Shown here: one piece after another, positions 1,634 through 46,786 of the stretch
Position numbering within the stretch: position 1 is the stretch's first letter
How the letters are laid out: every line of letters begins with the position of its first letter
Assembly (NCBI GenBank): GCA_028695495.1
Contig: JAQVIX010000009.1
Location: forward strand, 1 to 47,515
Source of the DNA: Candidatus Cloacimonadota bacterium
GTDB lineage: Bacteria; Cloacimonadota; Cloacimonadia; Cloacimonadales; Cloacimonadaceae
Direction: 5' to 3'
Length of the DNA stretch: 47,515 bases
Position numbers and translations under genes: made by a program
The notes under the pieces: generated by a model
What the model was told of the DNA's origin: nothing
Seen by the model: the letters and a program-made list of their open reading frames with translations, nothing else
Database searches by the model: none

Positions 1634-3379
1634 TTACTTTTTTACTTTGATGGGGCGGGCGATATAGCTGGTATGTAGCAGCTTATGCGCTCTTTTGCTA
1701 TTGGGTGCGTCCAGGAACTCTTTGTAGAGCTTCTGGATGGATTCGTTATTGTGCGATTCACGGCGTTCGGCGGCTTCGTCTTCCTTGTACAAGCCTTTGG
1801 CGCGCTGTTTACGCACGCGGTTTGTGGAGCGATAGGGCTGTCCGCCACCGCCCACGCAACCGCCGGCGCATGCCATTACCTCTACAAAGTGGTAAGGCGG
1901 TTCCTTGCCTTCCGCTTGGGCACGACGGATTTCGTCCATCAGCTTGGTTACATTGCCCAAACCAGAAGCTACGCCGATGCGCACTTCTTTGCCCAAAACC
2001 TCAATCTTGCCTTTCTTGATGCCTTTGGAACCGCGTACAAAGTCGATCTTGGGATCCGGCAATTCGCTGCCGGTAGCCAGATAGTAGGCAGTTCTAAGAG
2101 CCGCTTCCATTACGCCGCCGGTAGCGCCAAAGATGGTGCCGGCACCGCTGTATTCGCCTAAGGGGCTATCCGCTTCGCCATCTTCCAATTCCGCCAGGTC
2201 GATGCCGCGGGTCTTTAGCATGCGGGCAAGCTCGCGGGTGGTAATGGTGAGATCCACGTCCTTATGCCCGGAGGCAAACATATCTTCCATGCGTTCAATC
2301 TCATATTTCTTGGCGGTGCAGGGCATTATAGACACCAGGAAGATCTTATTCGGGTCGATGCCCATCTTATCTGCCCAATAGGTTTTTACAATGCTGCCCA
2401 CCATCTGGTGCGGGCTTTTGGAAGAGGAGAAATGGGGAATCAGGTCGCTATCAAACTTCTCCAAAAAGTCCACCCAGGCGGGGCAACAGGTGGTAATCAG
2501 GGGGAAGCGTTCGGGATGCTTGCTAAAGATTTCCACAAACTCGCTGGCTTCTTCCATAATGGTAAGGTCGGCGCCAAAATTGGTATCAAATACATAGTGG
2601 AAGCCCAATTCGCGCAAGGCACTATACATCTTACCCTTTACGTTTGTGCCTACCTTGAAGCCAAACTCTTCGCCCAAAGCCACACGTACTGCGGGAGCCT
2701 CCTGAGCTACCAATACCAAATCCGGATTGTGCAGGGCATCCCATAGCGCATCGGAATCATCTGCTTCATAAATGGCGGCAACAGGGCAATAGGCGCTGCA
2801 TTGACCGCAACGGACGCATTCGCTATCGCCCAGGGGACGGTCGAAAGTGGGACCCACGTAGGTTTCAAAGCCGCGCTCGCTGCTTTGCAAAGCATGCACA
2901 TCTTGAATCTCGTTGCAAACATAGGTACAGCGACCGCAATTGATGCAATAGGAGGGGTCAAGCGTAATGGCATGGGAGCTTTCATCACGCCCTTTATACT
3001 TTCTTCTAATCTTTTTCAGGTTCATGTGCCGGATGGCGAGTTCTTGCGCCAGGGCTTGCAATTCGCAACGCCCGTTTTTGATACATTCCGGACAGTTATT
3101 GGGATGGTTGGAAAGAATAATCTCCAGCGCTTCCCGCCTCAGATCCAATAGTTTCTTGCCTGTGGTAACAATCTGCATCCCGTCCTCGCAAGGAGTGGAG
3201 CAAGCGCGAACCACTTTGCCATTTACCTCTACCATACACACACCGCAATTGCCAAAGGCGGGGAGGTCTTCATGGTAGCAAAGGTGAGGCACCTTGTATC
3301 CAGCTTTGGTGCAGGCATGTAACACCTTGGTGTTCTTCAGCACCTGCGTAGCTTTTCCGTTGATGTAAACAGTTATCAT
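1634..3379 (-). CDS. hydA: [FeFe] hydrogenase catalytic subunit, group A
   Basis: Catalyses reversible reduction of protons to H2 in the cytoplasm. Domain order over 581 residues: plant-type [2Fe-2S] ferredoxin domain (Cys34, 45, 48, 60), His-Cys [4Fe-4S] site (His92, Cys96, 99, 105), two [4Fe-4S] sites (Cys145/148/151/155 and 188/191/194/198), then the H-cluster domain with TTCCPAW (298-299), MPCTAKKYE (Cys354) and EVMACAGGCVGGGGQP (Cys504, 508), ending in the small-subunit-like tail RAKGLY..SHNN..LYKEFL..AHKLLHTSY. All H-cluster ligands are present; the first motif reads TTCCP rather than the common TSCCP. An AGGAG site lies 5-6 bases before the ATG. No HydB/HydC electron-bifurcation partners or HydEFG maturases are in the window. 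The gene is divergent from the Rrf2/isc operon. Confidence 0.96.
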   Translation of the reverse strand: MITVYINGKATQVLKNTKVLHACTKAGYKVPHLCYHEDLPAFGNCGVCMVEVNGKVVRACSTPCEDGMQIVTTGKKLLDLRREALEIILSNHPNNCPECIKNGRCELQALAQELAIRHMNLKKIRRKYKGRDESSHAITLDPSYCINCGRCTYVCNEIQDVHALQSSERGFETYVGPTFDRPLGDSECVRCGQCSAYCPVAAIYEADDSDALWDALHNPDLVLVAQEAPAVRVALGEEFGFKVGTNVKGKMYSALRELGFHYVFDTNFGADLTIMEEASEFVEIFSKHPERFPLITTCCPAWVDFLEKFDSDLIPHFSSSKSPHQMVGSIVKTYWADKMGIDPNKIFLVSIMPCTAKKYEIERMEDMFASGHKDVDLTITTRELARMLKTRGIDLAELEDGEADSPLGEYSGAGTIFGATGGVMEAALRTAYYLATGSELPDPKIDFVRGSKGIKKGKIEVLGKEVRIGVASGLGNVTKLMDEIRRAQAEGKEPPYHFVEVMACAGGCVGGGGQPYRSTNRVRKQRAKGLYKEDEAAERRESHNNESIQKLYKEFLDAPNSKRAHKLLHTSYIARPIKVKK

Positions 3380-3450
3380 ATTCGCTCCTGATACGTTTTT
3401 TTATACTTTCACCATCTCTCATGATAATAGATTTGTGTCAAGCTTTTTCA

Positions 3451-3521
3451 GGTGATAGGTGTTAGGTGTTAGGTGTTAGGGAAGGTGGCAGGTAGCAGGT
3501 GGCAGGTGGCAGCGCTTGCGC
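3451..3521. repeat. Heptamer array H1 (GGTGNNA, 8 units) plus GC word
   Basis: Four units GGTGATA, GGTGTTA x3 (3451-3478) are followed by GGGAA and four more units GGTGGCA, GGTAGCA, GGTGGCA, GGTGGCA (3484-3511), abutting GCGCTTGCGC (3512-3521). It is the longest and cleanest member of the heptamer family in this window. All other members are also intergenic. Confidence 0.9.
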
Positions 3522-3612
3522 CCGCACTGAACTTATAGCACTTTGCACTTAGCTCTCTGCCCCGCCGCTAATAGCAATTTACAGCCCATAACTGATAACA
3601 TCGAACCAAGGC

Positions 3613-3637
3613 TACCTGAAACCTGCCCCCTGCAACC
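3613..3637. repeat. Heptamer array H2, degenerate (TNNNACC)
   Basis: TACC followed by TGAAACC, TGCCCCC and TGCAACC in 7-bp phase. It has the opposite orientation to H1, about 90 bp away, so H1 and H2 form a loose inverted pair in the hydA/isc gap. Confidence 0.6.
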
Positions 3638-3704
3638 TAAAAAAGCATTTGCCATAATCCCCCAGCCGATTAGTATGTAATTAGAAAATAGTAATGGAGA
3701 AAAA

Positions 3705-4115
3705 ATGGCGCTTAATACACGTACCGAATATGCCCTCAGGGTCTTGCTGGAGCTGGCAGATGGCGATATGGTCTCTGCCCAAAAGATTTGCGACAGGCAA
3801 CAGCTTCCCAAGAAATATATCGAGCATCTTTTAGCCTTGCTCAAAAATGCCGGCATCGTAAAAAGCACCGCCGGCAGTAAAGGCGGCTATAGCCTTACGC
3901 GTCCGGCAGCAGAGATTACTTTTGCCCAGATTCTCAAAGCGGTAGAAGATTATAGCTTTAGCACCAGTTGCTTGCCGGATGATAAGCGCTTTTGCGTGGG
4001 TAAATACTGCAATCTCTCGCGCTTCTTTTCCAAATTGAACAGGCAATTGGAGCAGCTTTTTGGCTCTTACAACCTGGAAATGATCCATAAAATATACACA
4101 GAAGGAAATAAATAA
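3705..4115 (+). CDS. Rrf2-family transcriptional regulator (IscR-like)
   Basis: A 136-residue winged-helix regulator. The N-terminus MALNTRTEYALRVLLELA and the KGGYSLTRP wing are typical of Rrf2/IscR. Three cysteines, Cys89, Cys97 and Cys102, lie where IscR binds its [2Fe-2S] cluster; spacing is x7/x4 rather than IscR's x5/x5 and no His follows at +3, so the fourth ligand would differ. Stop and next start overlap by one base (TAATG), so it is cotranscribed with the IscS-like gene. By family knowledge it probably senses Fe-S status and controls this operon, and perhaps the divergent hydrogenase; no operator could be picked out. Confidence 0.92.
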   Translation: MALNTRTEYALRVLLELADGDMVSAQKICDRQQLPKKYIEHLLALLKNAGIVKSTAGSKGGYSLTRPAAEITFAQILKAVEDYSFSTSCLPDDKRFCVGKYCNLSRFFSKLNRQLEQLFGSYNLEMIHKIYTEGNK

Positions 4116-8676: not shown

Positions 8677-8762
8677 GGAGGATTAGTCCTAATTGGTAAG
8701 GCAGCGGTCTTGAAAACCGCCGGGTTCTGCCCATGGGGGTTCGAATCCCTCATCCTCCGCCA
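8677..8762 (+). tRNA. tRNA-Ser (TGA)
   Basis: The acceptor GGAGGAT pairs with ATCCTCC, with discriminator G and encoded CCA. The anticodon stem GCGGT/ACCGC encloses CTTGAAA, giving anticodon TGA. The long variable arm (GGG-TTCTG-CCC) is the class II feature expected of tRNA-Ser, and the T arm is GGGGG-TTCGAAT-CCCTC. Confidence 0.95.
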
Positions 8763-8806
8763 CTTTATATAGTAGTGAACCTAATACCAGTGTTTTTTAG
8801 TATTGG

Positions 8807-8897
8807 GGAGAGGTGACCGAGCTGGCTGAAGGTGCACGCCTGCTAAGCGTGTGTAGGAGAAATCTTACCCAGGGTTCGAATCCCTGCCTCTCCGCCA
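8807..8897 (+). tRNA. tRNA-Ser (GCT)
   Basis: The acceptor GGAGAGG pairs with CCTCTCC, with discriminator G and encoded CCA. The anticodon loop CTGCTAA gives GCT. The variable arm (TGTAGGAGAAATCTTACC) is long, as in class II tRNAs. It lies 44 bases after the other tRNA-Ser. Confidence 0.95.
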
Positions 8898-8914
8898 CTT
8901 TATACAATACGAGT

Positions 8915-8989
8915 TGGGCAGTCGCCAAGCGGTAAGGCTGCGGGTTTTGGTCCCGCCATACGGGGGTTCGAATCCTCCCTGCCCAGCCA
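8915..8989 (+). tRNA. tRNA-Gln (TTG)
   Basis: The acceptor TGGGCAG pairs with CTGCCCA, followed by G and encoded CCA. The anticodon stem GCGGG/CCCGC encloses TTTTGGT, anticodon TTG. The T arm is GGGGG-TTCGAAT-CCTCC. Confidence 0.95.
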
Positions 8990-9001
8990 CCTTATTTTGA
9001 T

Positions 9002-9075
9002 TGGGATGTCGTCTAATGGTAGGACAGCGGACTCTGGATCCGTATGTGAGGGTTCAAATCCTTCCATCCCAGCCA
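9002..9075 (+). tRNA. tRNA-Gln (CTG)
   Basis: The acceptor TGGGATG pairs with CATCCCA, with G and encoded CCA. The anticodon loop CTCTGGA gives CTG. It follows tRNA-Gln(TTG) after 12 bases, so the four tRNAs probably share one transcript. Confidence 0.95.
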
Positions 9076-17147: not shown

Positions 17148-17443
17148 GGGTCTATTCTCCTGATTCATAAACGCATTGTTTTATGTAAGACCTTGCCAGA
17201 GCAGGCAATAAGTCCTTAAAACCAGAGTTTCAAAAGGGGGGATTTATGGCAAGGAAATTATTAAGGGGGCGTCGCTGTGAGAGAGGCAAAGGGGGAGGCA
17301 AAGATGAGCACCCTGTTTTATGGGAAAAGGAAACCCAGAATTAGCCCTCTACAACGAAAAATAAACAGAGCCAAGATACTCCGAAGCGAGCGCAGCGCCT
17401 GACACCCGATACCTGAAAACCTGACACCTCTCGCAGCAACGCC
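17148..17443. other. Intergenic region queD / binding-protein gene
   Basis: About 300 bp between the head of the queD operon and the end of the dapA operon. It must hold the queD promoter; TTGCCT and CATAAA 17 bp apart on the minus strand (plus 17182-17210 region) is the best I can offer and is weak. It also holds heptamer array H3. No gene-like open frame is present. Confidence 0.45.
17382..17428. repeat. Heptamer array H3 with GC word
   Basis: CGAAGCGAGCGCAGCGCC (17382-17399) followed by TGACACC, CGATACC, TGAAAACC (one base longer) and TGACACC (17400-17428). It has the same order as the other arrays: GC word, then TNNCACC units. Confidence 0.8.
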
Positions 17444-18190
17444 CTAATAAGTATAATCCTGAATGATTTTGAGCACTTCCCCTTTGTCGATCAAATCTTG
17501 CAAGGCGGCTTTGATCTTGTGGTTCAGGTTGGATTCTTTGGGCATAGCGATGCCATAGCTCTCATGGGTTTCAACGGTATAGGCTTTTTTCACAGAGTTC
17601 AATTTGGTGAAGGCTTCGGCAGCGCTGGCGTCCAAAATAAGGTAATCCAGATTGCGGGCCAAGATGGCGGCAACCGCTTCATTATTGGTAGAATAGGTAA
17701 TGAGATTTTCGGGATTCATAAGCTGTTTATCTATAAGGTGTTCTTTGATATAGAGCATGCCGGTGGTGCCGTTTTGGGCGCCGATGCGGAATTCCGCCAA
17801 ATCCTGGGGATTCCTGATTACGGCGGGGTTATCATAGCGGGTAAGAACTTCCTGATTTGTTACATAATAGGGCTGGGAAAAATCTATTACCCGCGATCTT
17901 TCGGATGTAATGGTAATGGCAGAGATTGCCAGGTCCACTTCGCCGTTTTGCACCAGGGTAAGGAGTTTATCAAATTCGGTATCGCGAATCTTGTATTCCA
18001 TACCCATTTTATCGGCAATCTTTTTCCCGATTTCGATATCGATACCGCGGAAAGTCTCTTCATCCAAATATTCAAAAGGGGGATAATCAGCATGGGTTCC
18101 GATGTATAATACTTTGTTTCGTTGCTTTTCGCATCCGCCTATCAGGAGGATCAGGATCAGAAAGCTAATGTAGAATAATCTGCGATTCAT
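17444..18190 (-). CDS. Amino-acid ABC transporter substrate-binding lipoprotein (family 3)
   Basis: A 248-residue periplasmic binding lipoprotein. The lipobox LIGGC is at about residue 20. The mature part opens with YIGTHADYPPFEYLDEETFRG and continues with VDLAISAITITSERSRVIDFSQPYY, the signature of polar amino-acid binding proteins, and ends with an IKAALQDLIDKGEVLKII helix. No permease or ATPase gene is in the window, so its transporter partner is elsewhere, or it acts as a sensor. It is the last gene of the long dapA-led run, 32 bases after nfeD. The ligand is not predictable beyond an amino acid. Confidence 0.92.
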   Translation of the reverse strand: MNRRLFYISFLILILLIGGCEKQRNKVLYIGTHADYPPFEYLDEETFRGIDIEIGKKIADKMGMEYKIRDTEFDKLLTLVQNGEVDLAISAITITSERSRVIDFSQPYYVTNQEVLTRYDNPAVIRNPQDLAEFRIGAQNGTTGMLYIKEHLIDKQLMNPENLITYSTNNEAVAAILARNLDYLILDASAAEAFTKLNSVKKAYTVETHESYGIAMPKESNLNHKIKAALQDLIDKGEVLKIIQDYTY

Positions 18191-26152: not shown

Positions 26153-27028
26153 TCAGATAAGCCCATATTCCTTTAGCCCCTCTTTCAGAGTATCGCGGTT
26201 TTGCTCCAGCAAAGGGCAGATAGGCAGGCGGAATTCAGGGGAAATAAGTCCCATCAGCGCCAAAGCTTCCTTGGCAGGGATGGGATTGGTTTCGATAAAC
26301 ATCAGGTCGTTTAGCTTCGCCAGATACCGGTGTTGCTTAGCCGCATTGGCATAATCCCCCGCCAGGCAGGTGGCGATATGATCGTGCATTAGCCGCGGCA
26401 CTACATTGGCGGTAACGGAGATGCAGCCCTTGCCCCCGATTGCCATTAGCGGCAGATTCAGGGCATCTTCCCCGCTGAGGAGGCTAAAACCTTCCGGCGC
26501 ATCGCGGATTATCTGCGTGGCTTGCACCAGGCTGCCACTGGCTTCTTTGATGCCTCTGATCTGCGGAAACTCCTGCGCCAGCTTTACCACTGTGGCAGGC
26601 AGGATATTCCCTCCGGTGCGTCCGGGAACATTGTAAATCACGATGGGGATATCCACTTTGCGGCAAATCGCCTGATAGTATTCGTATAGTCCCTTTTGGG
26701 TGGGTTTTATATAATAAGGAGTGATAATGAGGACGCTGGCGGCTCCCAAATCCTTTGCTTTCTGGGTATTTACCAGGGTTTGCGAAAGGTTATTTGTGCC
26801 CGTGCCAATCATTACCGGCACTTTGCCATCGATCTTTTTCAAGGCAAAGCGTAAGAGCCTATCCTTTTCATCCGATGCCAGCCCGGCTGTCTCCGCCGTG
26901 GTGCCCAAAAGCAGGATGCCATCGGTTTTGTTTTCCAAATGAAAGTTTAGTAATGCCTCCAACGCATTCCAATCTATACTGCCATTTTTAAATGGCGTTA
27001 CCAGAGCAACGATTGAACCTTGCAGCAT
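26153..27028 (-). CDS. dapA: 4-hydroxy-tetrahydrodipicolinate synthase
   Basis: A 291-residue class I aldolase condensing pyruvate and aspartate semialdehyde in lysine/diaminopimelate synthesis. The Schiff-base Lys161 is in GIKEASGS; Thr43-Thr44 (GTTAE), Tyr106 (TPYY) and Tyr132 form the proton relay; Arg137 (YNVPGRTG) binds the aspartate semialdehyde carboxylate. This set favours DapA over the N-acetylneuraminate lyase or KDG aldolase relatives. The motif GTTAET differs slightly from the usual GTTGES. GGAGG lies 6 bases before the ATG. It heads the long operon running to 17444; no other lysine genes are nearby. Confidence 0.93.
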   Translation of the reverse strand: MLQGSIVALVTPFKNGSIDWNALEALLNFHLENKTDGILLLGTTAETAGLASDEKDRLLRFALKKIDGKVPVMIGTGTNNLSQTLVNTQKAKDLGAASVLIITPYYIKPTQKGLYEYYQAICRKVDIPIVIYNVPGRTGGNILPATVVKLAQEFPQIRGIKEASGSLVQATQIIRDAPEGFSLLSGEDALNLPLMAIGGKGCISVTANVVPRLMHDHIATCLAGDYANAAKQHRYLAKLNDLMFIETNPIPAKEALALMGLISPEFRLPICPLLEQNRDTLKEGLKEYGLI

Positions 27029-27135
27029 GGTGATCCTCCTGAATCCTTACTTATTGCAATATTATTTATTTTTTCATAAATACCAAGCTTATGAAGCGGC
27101 AAAATTAGTCAACTTAATTTATGCGCGCTTTGCGA

Positions 27136-27174
27136 GATGGCAGGTCGCAGGTCGCAGGTATTAGGCGCTGCGCC
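27136..27174. repeat. Heptamer array H4 with GC word
   Basis: GATGGCA, GGTCGCA, GGTCGCA, GGTATTA, then GGCGCTGCGCC (27164-27174). It is in the same order as H1 read on the plus strand. Confidence 0.85.
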
Positions 27175-27236: not shown

Positions 27237-27308
27237 GTCTCTCGGTCTCTCGGTCTCCCAGTCTCTTAGTCATATAGTCATAAAGTCTCTTATCCTCTTC
27301 GTCACTTA
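27237..27308. repeat. Octamer array O1 (GTCTCTNA, 9 units)
   Basis: Nine 8-bp units in phase: GTCTCTCG x2, GTCTCCCA, GTCTCTTA, GTCATATA, GTCATAAA, GTCTCTTA, TCCTCTTC, GTCACTTA. The invariant core is GTC at positions 1-3. It lies 63 bp from heptamer array H4. Confidence 0.88.
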
Positions 27309-27657
27309 ATCCTCGCCACATGCAAAGCAAAAACCCTGCTAAATATACATGTTACATCTATATTCTACATTTCCCCTCAAAGCGTGGAGCCAGCTTCGCC
27401 CCGTGGCTTAGGCACGCCACGCCTCACGCAGATACCTCCGCCGGATATTTATTTAGAAAATCCAAACCTGGGTATCCAAAACTACTATAGTGGACAAAAT
27501 GGTTTTTAGATCTTAGGTGATCGGTCTTAGTTGTTTGGTACTGCGTGGGTACCGAAGGTATTTATTTTTTTATTTAGCTCTCTTACAAGCTTGGTGGGTA
27601 GCCATCGAATATATTGGATGCGATTATTTCCCGAAATGATGGCATCCTACCTTTCTT

Positions 27658-27901
27658 GAGGATGTCCCGAAACACAATAAAACCCACAAAACAAGAAATG
27701 TCCACACCTGAAATGTAGGGGCTCAATGCCTTGAACCCGCCGAAATTTACACGCAACAGCTAATCATTACGGACTCAGTATCAATTTATTACGGTGTGCG
27801 CTGCGCGCACGCTTTGTTAAAAAGCGGACGCAAAGCCTTGCGCCCCTACATTCTCGTTTTGCTTGATATCGTGCCTGGTTTTGGCATTTCAGGACAGCCT
27901 C
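27658..27901 (-). mobile_element. MITE-like element, copy B (244 bp, reverse orientation)
   Basis: GAGGATGTCCCGAAAC at one end and ATTTCAGGACAGCCTC at the other. The inside matches copy D reversed, with the GGTTCAA stem degraded to CTCAATGCCTTGAACCC. Both ends are flanked by CTT outside the GAGG, as in the left ends of copies A and E, so the true terminus may be CTTGAGGCTGTCC. Confidence 0.85.
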
Positions 27902-28042
27902 AAGAGTGGCATTGCTCGCAAGCGCAGGTTGATCATAGCTACGCATGGAATGCATAATCTGGAAAAGTCTTTTGAACTCCTTGCTGCTTTGTAAGGCGTT
28001 TGTAGTGTGAAGGGCGGATAAGCGGCAGAAATCCAAAAACAT

Positions 28043-37140: not shown

Positions 37141-37207
37141 TGAGGTGTAATTCGTGCTAATTTGTGCTAATTCGTGGACAAAATATAGTTTAAGGCATTG
37201 CAGTTCG

Positions 37208-37370: not shown

Positions 37371-37410
37371 GTGCGCAGCGCCTAACACCTAAAACCTATC
37401 ACCTAACACC
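37371..37410. repeat. Heptamer array H5 with GC word
   Basis: GTGCGCAGCGCC (37371-37382) followed by TAACACC, TAAAACC, TATCACC, TAACACC in perfect 7-bp phase. Confidence 0.9.
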
Positions 37411-37473
37411 TGCTAAAGGATTCATGACCGGCATAGACTTCACGAACTATTATCGTTGTTAGCTGCCGCCATA

Positions 37474-39088: not shown

Positions 39089-39769
39089 ATGAAAAGATAC
39101 TTACCGATACTACTGGCGCTGCTAATACTGCTAAGTGCGTTTGGCTGCTCCATCCTGGGCACCGGCAGCGAAAAGAACATTGTAAAATATGACATCGAAC
39201 TGAGCATGGTGCGCAAAGCCAGCGATATCAATCAACGCTATCGCGCCCCCGTAGCCGATACTAGCTTAGGCGGCGTTACCCGCTATGCCTATGAAGATGA
39301 CCTCTTCCGCAGCATCTGGAGCGCCACCGAAGCCGGTTGGGAGCTTGTACTCAATAATAAGAGCGAAAAACCCATCGTAATCGATTGGGACGATGTAGTT
39401 TATTACGATATCGACAACATGTCGCACAAAGTACTTTCAAACAAAACCAAATTTGCAGATAAAGGCAACGAACAAGAGCCTACCCTCGTAGCCAAAAGAG
39501 GAACCATCGACGAAAAGCTAAGCTCCGCCACACACATCTACCAATCCCCCGTGTATGGCTTTACAAAGCGCCCCCTCTTCCCCATCGACTTTTCGGAAGC
39601 AATCCGCTACAAAAACAAAGAGTTCAAGCTCATGATCCCCTTTACCGTGGATGGTCTTTCCGCCCAATATGAGTTTGTATTTACCATCAAAGATGTAACA
39701 CAAGAGCTTTCCGCCAGCGACCCCTGGAGTGCTTATCTTACAGATAGAGCGCTGGGAACAAACTTCTAA
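39089..39769 (+). CDS. Lipoprotein of unknown function
   Basis: A 226-residue lipoprotein with signal peptide and lipobox LSAFGC (Cys about residue 20). The mature domain is beta-rich (WELVLNNKSEKPIVIDWDDVVYYDIDNMSHKVL; EFKLMIPFTVDGLSAQYEFVFTIKD), resembling small immunoglobulin-like domains found in bacterial envelope lipoproteins. No catalytic residues can be named. GGAGAG lies 7 bases before the ATG. It is followed by a strong terminator and preceded by a 73-base gap with a TATCCTATAAAAT stretch that could supply a -10, so it may be a single-gene transcript. Confidence 0.8.
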   Translation: MKRYLPILLALLILLSAFGCSILGTGSEKNIVKYDIELSMVRKASDINQRYRAPVADTSLGGVTRYAYEDDLFRSIWSATEAGWELVLNNKSEKPIVIDWDDVVYYDIDNMSHKVLSNKTKFADKGNEQEPTLVAKRGTIDEKLSSATHIYQSPVYGFTKRPLFPIDFSEAIRYKNKEFKLMIPFTVDGLSAQYEFVFTIKDVTQELSASDPWSAYLTDRALGTNF

Positions 39770-39802: not shown

Positions 39803-39836
39803 AAGGACTTATGTTCGAGGGCATAAGTCCTTTTTT
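39803..39836 (+). terminator. Terminator after the lipoprotein gene
   Basis: AAGGACTTATG pairs with CATAAGTCCTT (11 bp) around TTCGAGGG, followed by TTTTTT. Confidence 0.93.
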
Positions 39837-39844
39837 AGCTTATA

Positions 39845-39867
39845 GGTGTTAGGTGATAGGGCTGCGC
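39845..39867. repeat. Heptamer array H6 with GC word
   Basis: GGTGTTA, GGTGATA, then GGGCTGCGC. It is a short array, reading on the plus strand like H1. Confidence 0.75.
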
Positions 39868-39935
39868 AAAGGGCAAAGATGCAGTGTTGTTTTGTTCTTT
39901 AATTCCTTAGTTGATTTGTTACCCTCCCTCTCTTG

Positions 39936-39967
39936 GTCTCTAAGTCTCTTTGTCCTAAAGCTCTATT
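39936..39967. repeat. Octamer array O2
   Basis: GTCTCTAA, GTCTCTTT, GTCCTAAA, GCTCTATT; ends 5 bases before MITE copy E. Confidence 0.75.
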
Positions 39968-39972
39968 CACTT

Positions 39973-40215
39973 GAGGCTGTCCAGAAATGCCAAAATCAAG
40001 CACGATATCTAACGAAATGAGAGTGTAGGGGCGCAATGCGTTGCGCCCGCTTTTGACAAAGCGTGCACAACGCTTACATTGTAATTAATTGATACTGCGT
40101 TCGTAATGGTTACTTGTTGCGTGTAAATTTCGGCGGGTTCAATGCCTTGAACCCCTACATTTCAGGTGTGGACATTTCTTGATGTTGTGTTGTTTGCGTA
40201 TTTCGGGACAGCCTC
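39973..40215 (+). mobile_element. MITE-like element, copy E (243 bp)
   Basis: GAGGCTGTCCAGAAAT and ATTTCGGGACAGCCTC (one mismatch). The first hairpin is GGGCGCAA-TGCG-TTGCGCCC and the last is GGGTTCAA-TGCC-TTGAACCC, both perfect 8-bp stems. Confidence 0.9.
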
Positions 40216-40252
40216 GGAATGAACATATCGGCTACCGGTGACTGAAGAGGAC

Positions 40253-40284
40253 ATTAAGACTAAGAGACTATGAGACTTAGAGAA
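40253..40284. repeat. Octamer array O3 (opposite orientation)
   Basis: ATTAAGAC, TAAGAGAC, TATGAGAC, TTAGAGAA in 8-bp phase, the reverse complement of the GTCTCTNA unit. Confidence 0.75.
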
Positions 40285-40315: not shown

Positions 40316-40368
40316 AGCGCAGCGCCTAACACCTAACCCCTATCACCTAACACCTTGCGAAGCGCAGC
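40316..40368. repeat. Heptamer array H7 with GC words on both sides
   Basis: AGCGCAGCGCC (40316-40326), then TAACACC, TAACCCC, TATCACC, TAACACC (40327-40354), then TTGCGAAGCGCAGC. Confidence 0.9.
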
Positions 40369-40441
40369 AAAGCGTTTTGCTTGACATAATACGCCCCGCC
40401 ATAAAAAATGCATCCAGATTATTTATTTATTGGAGTGAGAT

Positions 40442-41476
40442 ATGTTTCCCATTAGTTTTGGTAGTGATAACCACAGCGGGATTCACTATACCGTAATCTC
40501 TGCATTACAAAAGGTAAACGTGGGCTTTTGTCCCGCTTATGGAGATGATCCGCTTACCGCTGCGGTGCTTGCGCAATTGGAAGCGCTTTTTGGCGGAGAT
40601 GCTGCTGCCACTTTTGTAATGACCGGCACGGGTGCGAATATCCTGGCACTGCAATCCGTATTGAGTAGCTTTCATGCCGTAATCTGCGCCGATACTGCGC
40701 ACATCAATGTGGACGAATGTGGAGCCTTGCAAAAGTGCATCGGCGCGCGTTTAATGCCCATCAAAACGCCGGATGGCAAGCTTACGCCAAAGCTGATTGC
40801 ACCGCTCTTTCTTTTGGATAGAGACCAACACCACTCTCAATATAAAGTAATCTCCATCTCCCAAAGCACCGAATACGGCACGCTTTATACTCTGGAGGAA
40901 ATCCGCGCTTTGGCAGACTTTGCGCACGAGCATGGGCTGCTACTGCATATCGATGGGGCGCGCCTGGCAAATGCCGCCGCGGCGCTAAATTGCAGTCTTA
41001 AAGAGCTTACCAAAGATGCCGGTGCCGATATCATCAGCTTTGGGGGCACCAAAAACGGCTTGCTTTTCGGTGAAGCCATCATTAGCTTTGTGCCAGAGCT
41101 TTCGCAGGATATCCGCTTTTACCGCAAGCAGATTACGCAGCTCTTTTCCAAGATGCGCTTTATCTCTGCGCAATATGAGGCTTACCTTACCCGCGATCTC
41201 TGGCTGGAATGCGCCCGGCATGCAAACGCCATGGCAGGTCTTTTAGCAGAAAAGCTCGCCGAATTTCCCCAAATCAAGCTGGTAAATAAGGTGGAAGTTA
41301 ATTCCCTCTTTGTAAAGATGCCCGCCGCCTGGATCCCCATCCTGCAAGAGAAATACCTCTTTTACACCTGGGACGAAGCTAAGCATATCGTAAGGCTGAT
41401 GTGTTCGTTCAATACCCTGGAAGAACACATTGAGGAGTTTGTCGAAAGCGTGAGGGAGTTGGCGCATTCTAAATGA
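40442..41476 (+). CDS. Low-specificity threonine aldolase
   Basis: A 344-residue fold type I PLP lyase that cleaves threonine or allo-threonine to glycine and acetaldehyde. Motifs: FGSDNHSGIHYTVI at the N-terminus, TGTGANILAL, DTAHINVDECGAL, LHIDGARLANA (Asp171, Arg174) and the PLP Lys204 in SFGGTKNG. The length is right for LtaE-type enzymes. GGAG lies 7 bases before the ATG. It stands alone between repeat islands, so it is probably monocistronic. It could supply glycine for one-carbon metabolism together with FolC further on, which is inference. Confidence 0.93.
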   Translation: MFPISFGSDNHSGIHYTVISALQKVNVGFCPAYGDDPLTAAVLAQLEALFGGDAAATFVMTGTGANILALQSVLSSFHAVICADTAHINVDECGALQKCIGARLMPIKTPDGKLTPKLIAPLFLLDRDQHHSQYKVISISQSTEYGTLYTLEEIRALADFAHEHGLLLHIDGARLANAAAALNCSLKELTKDAGADIISFGGTKNGLLFGEAIISFVPELSQDIRFYRKQITQLFSKMRFISAQYEAYLTRDLWLECARHANAMAGLLAEKLAEFPQIKLVNKVEVNSLFVKMPAAWIPILQEKYLFYTWDEAKHIVRLMCSFNTLEEHIEEFVESVRELAHSK

Positions 41477-41501
41477 ATGATGAATGATGAATGATGAATG
41501 A
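41474..41501. repeat. TGAATGA array (4 units)
   Basis: Four perfect TGAATGA heptamers begin over the last codon of the threonine aldolase gene and continue beyond it. It is followed by the palindrome ATGCGC-AA-GCGCAT (41509-41522). Confidence 0.88.
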
Positions 41502-41815
41502 TGGCGGTATGCGCAAGCGCATGCTAATTTGATGCTTACGCATGGTTAGTCGCTTCGCTTAACAAAAGAATATGAGTGAAGTGATTAATTCACCGTTAAT
41601 ATCCGGTATATGCATAATACAACCCTATAAACTATAAGCTGTTCTCTATTACCAAATTAGGTTTGCGAGCTTGCGAAGCAAACAATGCCTTCATTATTCA
41701 TCATTCATTATTCATTTGCGAGCTTGCAAGCCTGCGCCCAATCCCCCAAAACAACTTGCGAATTATCCCTTTCTCATTATCTTAGACAATAGATACTAAA
41801 AAAGAAGGAGAAACC
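41502..41815. other. Intergenic region threonine aldolase / wrbA
   Basis: About 310 bp bounded by inverted TGAATGA and TTCATNA arrays, with GCGC palindromes and two related GCGAGCTTGC words. The last 60 bases should contain the wrbA promoter; no well-spaced boxes were found. No gene-like frame is present. Confidence 0.5.
41690..41731. repeat. TTCATNA array (4 units) with GCGAGCTTGC word
   Basis: TTCATTA, TTCATCA, TTCATTA, TTCATTT, then GCGAGCTTGCAAGC. It is inverted relative to 41474-41501, about 190 bp away. Confidence 0.85.
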
Positions 41816-45619: not shown

Positions 45620-46537
45620 ATGCATCCCGAAATAGAAAACTATCTTTCCCACCTCTATCCGCTTTTGGCACAACGCGGTATCGAAATCCTCTGGCACAAA
45701 GAAATCGCCTACGGCATTCAACTCAAGCTAAGCCGCGATATAGATAGCGCAAACCTGAATATCTATTACGGCAAAAAGGGACTGAGCACCCTCGTAGGCG
45801 GCAGCAAAGATAGCGCCCTAAAGCAGGAAATCGGGCGTTTGGTAGGAAATATCCATAGCGAACCGGCAAGCCCCGCCCTGCACCACTGGCACTATTGGAT
45901 TGGCAGCGATGAATGCGGCAAAGGGGATTACTTTGGTCCTCTGGTACTAAGCGCTTTTTACCTGAAACAGGAGCAGGTGCCAGAGCTAAGACAACTGGGC
46001 ACTGTGGATAGCAAACGCTTAAACGATACCAAACTAAAGACCATCGCCGAAAGCATTTACCGCAGCTTTCCCGGACAATGCCAGGCGCTTATCATCAGCC
46101 CCCGCCGCTATAACGAACTGATCAGCGATTTCAAGCGGCAAAACCTCAATCTTAACGACCTTTTAGCCTGGGCGCATAGCAAGGTGATTAGCGAACTGAT
46201 CGCCAAAAGCCAGCCCCTGGAAGGCGTAATCATAGACCAATTTTCCAAAGCCCAAAAAGCCAGAGCACGCCTGATTGCTAAATATCCGAGACTCAATATC
46301 ATCGAGCGTACCGCCGCTGAGCGCGACCCCGCCGTTGCCGCCGCCTCCATCCTGGCGCGCTACCAATTCCTCATCGCCAAAAAGAATATGGAAAAGAGCT
46401 TTGGCTTCAATTTCCCCTTAGGTGCCGGAGCGAATGTAAAGAAAGCTGCGCAAACCTTTGTAACGGAACAGGGTATGAACAAGCTTGGAGAAGTGGCGAA
46501 GCTGCACTTCAAGACTACGCTGGCGCTACGCTCCTAA
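45620..46537 (+). CDS. rnhC: Ribonuclease HIII
   Basis: A 305-residue RNase H type 2 enzyme cleaving RNA in RNA-DNA hybrids. The N-terminal ~80 residues form the TBP-like substrate-binding domain special to RNase HIII (YYGKKGLSTLVGGSKDSALKQEI). The catalytic domain begins GSDECGKGDYFGPLV (Asp97, Glu98), continues with TVDSKRLNDTK and has the active-site Asp in VIIDQF, then ERTAAERDPAVAAASILAR. The N-terminal domain and GKGDYFGP separate it from RNase HII. It follows folC after 5 bases. RNase HIII has a patchy distribution, so its presence is mildly informative about the lineage. Confidence 0.95.
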   Translation: MHPEIENYLSHLYPLLAQRGIEILWHKEIAYGIQLKLSRDIDSANLNIYYGKKGLSTLVGGSKDSALKQEIGRLVGNIHSEPASPALHHWHYWIGSDECGKGDYFGPLVLSAFYLKQEQVPELRQLGTVDSKRLNDTKLKTIAESIYRSFPGQCQALIISPRRYNELISDFKRQNLNLNDLLAWAHSKVISELIAKSQPLEGVIIDQFSKAQKARARLIAKYPRLNIIERTAAERDPAVAAASILARYQFLIAKKNMEKSFGFNFPLGAGANVKKAAQTFVTEQGMNKLGEVAKLHFKTTLALRS

Positions 46538-46540
46538 CAA

Positions 46541-46572
46541 GGTGATAGGTTTTAGGTGTTAGGCGCTGACGC
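46541..46572. repeat. Heptamer array H8 with GC word
   Basis: GGTGATA, GGTTTTA, GGTGTTA, then GGCGCTGACGC. It starts 4 bases after the rnhC stop. Confidence 0.85.
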
Positions 46573-46625
46573 TCGCGGATAAGTTACTTTGTTGTTATAT
46601 TCTTAGTCCATTCCGGTATCCCTTG

Positions 46626-46664
46626 GTCTCTAAGTCTCTCCGTGTTAAAATCTTAAAGTCCATA
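46626..46664. repeat. Octamer array O4, decayed
   Basis: GTCTCTAA, GTCTCTCC, GTGTTAAA, ATCTTAAA, then GTCCATA (7 bases) before another GTC. Phase is kept for four units. Confidence 0.65.
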
Positions 46665-46758: not shown

Positions 46759-46786
46759 TTGACAGAAAACACCACTCCTGCATAAT
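46759..46786 (+). promoter_or_regulatory. Candidate promoter P1 of the last gene
   Basis: TTGACA (46759-46764), 16-bp spacer, CATAAT (46781-46786). Confidence 0.65.

Follow-up and report, generated by a model that had tools for sequence, protein, structure and literature searches.

The window, that is, the whole stretch of 47,515 nucleotides analysed here, comes from a contig (JAQVIX010000009.1) of a Candidatus Cloacimonadota bacterium. Its spacers carry short tandem arrays of a 7-bp unit with a fixed AGGT core (Table 1). All nine arrays listed in an earlier note on this DNA were found at their positions; however, the array that the note placed at 3451 proved to be two abutting arrays of different class, and the one at 17400 was present but did not keep the 7-bp phase, which was broken by one 8-bp step. 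An Rfam scan of the window returned only four tRNAs.

Table 1. Arrays, other repeats and tRNA genes in the window (letters in brackets, NNN of the units; GC words are given where present)
Feature	Position	Strand	Context
AGGT array, T-type (GAT GTT GTT GTT)	3450-3481	+	begins after a T-run; the gene starting at 3379 has its TTGACA in the gene-side flank (about 3441-3436, minus strand)
Second AGGT array, C-type (GGC AGC GGC GGC)	3483-3510	+	abuts the first; followed by GC word AGCGCTTGCGCC
AGGT array, C-type (TGC GGC TTC AGC)	3611-3638	-	without GC word; upstream of the gene at 3705
AGGT array, one 8-bp step, with GC word GAGCGCAGCGCC	17390-17430	-	beside the 3' end of gene 17444-18190 (-)
AGGT array (GGC CGC CGC ATT) with GGCGCTGCGC	27135-27173	+	upstream side of the gene starting at 27028 (-); gene side with TTGACT at a distance of about 22 bp
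AGGT array (GTT GAT TTT GTT, the commonest four-unit word) with GGCGCTGCGCAC	37373-37411	-	
AGGT array (GTT GAT) with GGGCTGCGC	39837-39868	+	right behind the hairpin/T-run terminator (about 39803-39836) of gene 39089-39769 (+)
AGGT array (GTT GAT ggggtt GTT) with GGCGCTGCGCTAAG	40317-40355	-	TTGACA of the next gene at about 40381-40386
AGGT array (GAT TTT GTT) with GGCGCTGACGCTCG	46540-46576	+	immediately 3' of the stop of gene 45620-46537 (+)
AGGT array (degenerate unit, AGC, TTC, GGC) with GGCGCTGCGCTAA	46704-46742	-	TTGACA at about 46759-46764
Period-8 arrays GTCTCTNN	27237-27271, 39928-39964, 40256-40284, 46618-46646		
MITE-like repeat, about 240 bp	about 39974-40216 and 27655-27906		
Heptamer arrays ATGAATG / TTCATTA	41473-41503, 41690-41716		
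Period-10/11 array (TAATTCGTGT)	37148-37176		also at the ends of contigs L169 and L170
Four consecutive tRNA genes	8677-9072		

Several other repeats were observed in the same DNA. The period-8 arrays (8 matches vs 0 expected in shuffles) form an in-phase, variable and unpolarised family that often lies within spacers behind AGGT arrays. The MITE-like repeat occurs in several spacers; its ends, GAGGCTGTCC...GGACAGCCTC (or a near variant), are inverted, and GTAGGGGC/TTGAACCC words lie inside it. The ends of contigs L169 and L170 carry tandem composite blocks of several hundred bp that are built of arrays, and these blocks probably break the assembly.

Abundance, unit and element

The arrays were far more frequent than expected by chance. 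Allowing up to one mismatch, AGGTNNNAGGTNNNAGG had 24 matches in the window versus 0.33 +/- 0.55 expected from dinucleotide shuffles, and none of 100 shuffles reached 24. A genome-wide search with the three-unit pattern AGGTNNNAGGTNNNAGGT gave 161 matches (86 + 75) in the whole 2.72-Mb genome, whereas the reversed pattern, used as a composition control, gave 0 + 0. The arrays were also noncoding, as had been claimed: 129 matches were noncoding and 11 lay in ORFs, in a sample that is itself 84.5% ORF, and 3 of 122 arrays fell within ORFs longer than 700 nt. Both a frequency at the level of shuffled sequence and an equal occurrence inside coding regions are thus excluded. The genome sample comprised 660 kb of stretches picked for carrying arrays, which should not bias orientation. 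Genes were taken as simple longest ORFs, and therefore start sites are uncertain.

The unit had previously been described as TNNCACC/GGTGNNA. Its 7-bp length and fixed ACC/GGT hold, but the fixed core is AGGT/ACCT, and G follows GGT in only about 30-83% in an unbiased alignment; the true unit is therefore AGGTNNN (reverse NNNACCT). In this alignment, which was anchored on noncoding CGCTGCGCTCG words and did not require AGGT, the bases A, G, G and T were each conserved at 0.63-0.97 in all four heptamers upstream of the anchor, whereas most NNN positions reached 0.30-0.63, the exception being the first N of the last unit (0.83 G). Conservation stopped sharply at -31 from the anchor, which is a fixed array start four units upstream, and faded at about +28 on the downstream side. 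These bounds give an element of about 59 bp with the array as its head; its usual layout is four AGGTNNN units and AGG, followed by CGCTGCGCTCG and about 17 bp of tail. Four units were the modal size (50 of the 88 arrays with a GC word), with AGGTGTTAGGTGATAGGTTTTAGGTGTTAGGCGCTGCGCTCG as the modal array sequence. A GC-rich word on one side of eight of the nine arrays, reported before, was borne out: on the AGGT strand it stands 3' of the array in all cases except that at 3613, and the combination of array and GC word occurred 130 times genome-wide versus 11 times for the control. A sequence model of the element, with which 48 candidates were scored in each genome so that its full-copy counts are lower bounds, matched the array at 40317-40355 (match G000:C22:40300-40355, E 3.5e-14). 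No RNA fold was conserved across the element (RNAalifold: 6 pairs, zero compensatory changes).

The variation among units was structured. Each unit ends in T or C, and this base rarely changed between neighbouring units of an array (identical in 232 of 248 adjacent pairs, compared with 130 expected), whereas adjacent units of T-type arrays differed or alternated at bases 5 and 6 more than in shuffles. The number of units varied between near-identical copies in L169 and L170 (four vs five). At L165:13498 and L166:4407, the downstream blocks were 94.8% identical over 135 bp while the array types were wholly different (T-type vs C-type), which suggests that the GC word is a point at which arrays are swapped or rewritten in the manner of cassettes.

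Polarity and position at gene borders

In 79 of 92 arrays, we found the AGGT strand pointing away from the gene closest to it (p=1.1e-12). This outward polarity was equal at 5' and 3' gene ends, and it was retained when each spacer edge was counted once (66 of 76). When AGGT words were counted in spacer halves, 251 read away from the gene and 17 toward it. Most other intergenic repeat words were unpolarised, with GTCTCT, TTGTTG, TTCGTG, CCGTG and AAGGGC near 1:1, and a strand bias common to all spacers was therefore rejected as the source of the polarity. Weaker polarity was seen for ATGAATG (45 away vs 18 toward) and GTAGGGGC (26 vs 8). The frequency of arrays per edge was 0.18 at 5' divergent, 0.21 at 3' tandem, 0.26 at 5' tandem and 0.23 at 3' convergent edges.

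The two flanks of the arrays differed in content. Within 80 bp, the gene side was repetitive in 20 of 57 cases and the far side in 43-49 of 57, so the array is often a boundary between a unique gene flank (promoter or terminator) and a repeat-filled spacer. The gene side often carried a terminator T-run or an A/T-tract, and a T5 run was found within 20 nt on this side in 21% of arrays versus 3.7% in the control (p=1e-9). A TTGAC box lay within 70 nt on the gene side in 13 of the 30 upstream arrays that read away.

Most array-bearing spacers held arrays of a single orientation; paired-array spacers of the genome included 14 of '+-' type and no simple '-+'. The NNN bases of the two arrays of a pair matched at 0.35 versus 0.45 when shuffled, and hairpin pairing between the two arrays of a spacer was therefore rejected. 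Spacer interiors varied in content and in length (87-471 bp). The polarity with respect to genes, the four-unit size and the element of about 59 bp headed by the array had all been missed in the earlier note.

Occurrence in relatives and in other phyla

The element had a patchy distribution. At least 49 full copies were present in this genome (G000) and at least 51 full matches in G013, a species of a sister genus, with a few copies in G021 and G031. Most other relatives that matched the element model did so in the array part only, the element was largely absent from congeners, and the three-unit array pattern was likewise patchy among relatives. In two genomes of the same order, G065 and G067, the reversed control pattern TGGANNNTGGANNNTGGA was itself abundant (46 + 199 and 56 + 44), perhaps as another heptamer vocabulary. 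Polarity in G013 was weaker than in the present genome (35 of 57 arrays; 29 of 42 edges, p=0.02). None of 23 comparable edges was shared with G013, an underpowered comparison of distant relatives, and at two orthologous sites none of 22 loci in congeners, which are also distant relatives, bore an array. In the congener G002, the spacer upstream of an aldolase-like gene consists of a terminator followed almost directly by a promoter.

Five-unit AGGT arrays in GTDB genomes belonged, among the matches listed, to many phyla with many different NNN vocabularies, and AGGTNNN arrays also occur in cyanobacteria. Among the matches listed, the AGGT strand was directed away from the nearest gene at 53 of 69 loci in other phyla, whose NNN are unrelated (p=9e-6); control motifs gave 0.49-0.55. 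The fraction fell to 42 of 59 loci under stricter gene calls (p=1.5e-3, again among the matches listed), and polarity was lost if, in addition, every array dropped as coding was counted against it. Because of this weakening and the loss in the worst-case count, we regard it as likely, rather than proven, that the polarity rule holds, more weakly, for AGGT arrays across phyla. Tight pairs of arrays within 60 bp, some of them on viral and other-phylum contigs, were convergent only (12 '+-' vs 0 '-+'). The viral contigs L041, L050, L052 and L054 carried such tight convergent pairs of heptamer arrays, hairpin-like in form, between genes.

Precedents, origin and possible role

The earlier note had compared the arrays with cyanobacterial STRRs, heptamers for which it gave the words as different, but the closest precedent is the G-rich heptamer repeats of Xanthomonas (GGGAATC) and Nostoc (GGGGA(T/C)T), which are intergenic, prefer four units and have their G-rich strand near the 5' side of an ORF, reading away whatever the strand of the ORF (Rehm et al., 2015; PMC4692102). 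Inverted pairs of these repeats occur, no tie to gene function and no mobile genes were found, and quadruplex formation was proposed from their GGG tracts (PMC4692102). Like them, the AGGT arrays are 7-bp tandem and intergenic, prefer four units with a sharp start at -31, and have the AGGT strand pointing away from the near ORF regardless of its strand. Unlike them, the AGGT consensus has only GG tracts and none of three or more G, its units carry three variable letters, and the arrays bear a fixed GC-rich tail that extends them to a dispersed element. For the Xanthomonas and Nostoc repeats, related species are described as having most repeat sites in common (PMC4692102); the comparisons above, which involved distant relatives, revealed no shared sites. 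The best reading of the arrays is that they are a new GG-type variant of the polarised, four-unit heptamer repeats of gene borders, given their border position and the G-richer strand reading away at both gene ends.

Two other systems are more distant than the Xanthomonas and Nostoc repeats. The TAACTGA direct repeats of Beggiatoaceae, some Cyanobacteria and Bacteroidetes have a fixed unit, lie mostly within several nucleotides upstream of start codons and were proposed as translational sites (MacGregor, 2015; PMC4679880). The AGGT arrays resemble them as intergenic heptamers in short sets that are patchy over phyla, but have variable units, occur equally at both gene ends and are often outside the promoter. 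In Geobacter metallireducens, hepta- and octanucleotide tandem repeats are present in multiple copies, often as opposite-strand pairs, and are described as putative regulator binding sites (PMC2700814). They share with the AGGT arrays the tandem 7/8-mers, the many sites, some opposite-strand pairs and the variable distance, but the words differ, and the Geobacter repeats are not known to follow an orientation rule. Nothing closer to these heptamer words was found in the later literature searched.

We tentatively favour a border role for the arrays towards transcription leaving the gene, or an origin of the arrays driven by it. The copies flank transcription units beyond the promoter or terminator, and at both ends the G-richer AGGT strand reads outward. 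The polarity would be tied to transcription running out of the gene, past its 3' end as read-through or from its 5' end as divergent transcription. At both gene ends the AGGT strand is the non-template strand for such transcription, and the array could be a border that stalls or ends it. Several considerations point in this direction. First, arrays are about equally frequent at the four edge types (18-26%), which does not look like protection against incoming transcription and is expected if outward transcription is disliked at every edge. Second, outward transcription meets the G-richer strand as non-template at all edges. Finally, the polarity is common to unrelated words, and descent from one mobile element cannot explain everything. 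Also in favour are the strong polarity compared with other repeat words, the sharp element limits with A, G, G and T conserved alike, the modal four units, the repetitive far side and the T-runs on the gene side, the solely convergent tight pairs, and the published rule for the Xanthomonas and Nostoc heptamers. Counted against a border role are the lack of shared sites in the comparisons with relatives, the weaker polarity in G013, the sensitivity of the cross-phylum test to gene calls, the lack of a conserved fold, and the fact that much of the polarity would also be expected of a mobile element with inverted ends. Both the effect on transcription and the copying route are what we infer from the observed anatomy, number, polarity, border position and patchy spread of the arrays.

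REP/BIME sequences, which are associated with RAYT transposases, are small intergenic repeats present in many copies and in alternating orientation. The AGGT elements are also small, intergenic and many-copy, but they have no palindromic unit or conserved fold, and counts of Y1 transposase do not track the arrays. The main rival explanation, which is possible although we consider it rather doubtful, is that composite mobile elements without a host function fill the spacers, the arrays being their inverted ends; polarity would then arise because the ends of an insert are alike and inserts fall between terminator and promoter. The patchy high copy number, the convergent pairs without a simple '-+', the repetitive far-side flanks, some preference for T-tracts, and the nearly direct succession of terminator and promoter in G002 are consistent with such inserts. 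On the other hand, most array-bearing spacers are of single orientation, the NNN of paired arrays do not match, spacer interiors differ, array counts are unlinked to those of Y1 transposase or reverse transcriptase, and unrelated heptamers in other phyla are similarly polarised (PMC4692102). RAYT or reverse transcriptase as the copying enzyme was rejected, since enzyme counts do not track array counts.

A quadruplex element, as proposed for the Xanthomonas and Nostoc heptamers, in which four or five GG tracts at gene borders would fold into a quadruplex of DNA or RNA, appears unlikely. The modal array does have five GG tracts, its GG core is kept while loops vary, and four units are modal as in PMC4692102; however, a quadruplex of only two-G tracts with 5-nt loops would be weak, and the flanking A and T, unneeded for a quadruplex, are about as conserved as GG. 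Still less probable are Rho loading sites, in which incoming transcription would make C-rich, G-poor (NNNACCU)n and Rho would insulate genes. Rho is encoded in the genome and, in T-type arrays, the incoming strand is rich in C and has no G, but array frequency is independent of the incoming transcription expected at each edge type, and insulation by Rho was rejected on this ground. Ordinary growth as a microsatellite, through polymerase slippage in intergenic DNA under no constraint, is very improbable and largely refuted: the four- and five-unit copies, the homogeneous seventh base and the over-abundance of heptamers in some bacteria (PMC4692102) would suit it, but slippage alone was rejected on the fixed four-unit size with its sharp start, the T-type neighbours that are less alike than in shuffles, the strong polarity and fixed GC tail, and the single downstream block found with wholly different array types. 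The suggestion that a phase kept while the unit varies implies function or a copying mechanism is supported in part, namely by AGGT being kept in every unit, by the fixed four-unit start and by slippage being disfavoured.

Bacterial spacers have repeatedly been found to contain heptamers, for which no role is accepted. In this genome, a sharp and countable polarity rule distinguishes the AGGT arrays from the majority of the other intergenic repeats, and the rule is seen again, with other words, in other phyla. Polarised G-rich heptamers might even be a general and repeatedly re-invented gene-border device of bacteria, with lineage-specific words (AGGTNNN, GGGAATC, GGGGAYT), about four units and the G-rich strand outward at both ends, that limits transcription out of the gene, although we regard this extension as speculative and on the whole unlikely. 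The polarity leads to a testable question, whether transcription leaving genes or transcription-dependent repeat growth is involved, and the Xanthomonas and Nostoc precedent supplies culturable systems for testing it. The gene-border heptamer of this bacterium thus looks like a variant of a poorly understood kind of repeat rather than a one-off oddity.
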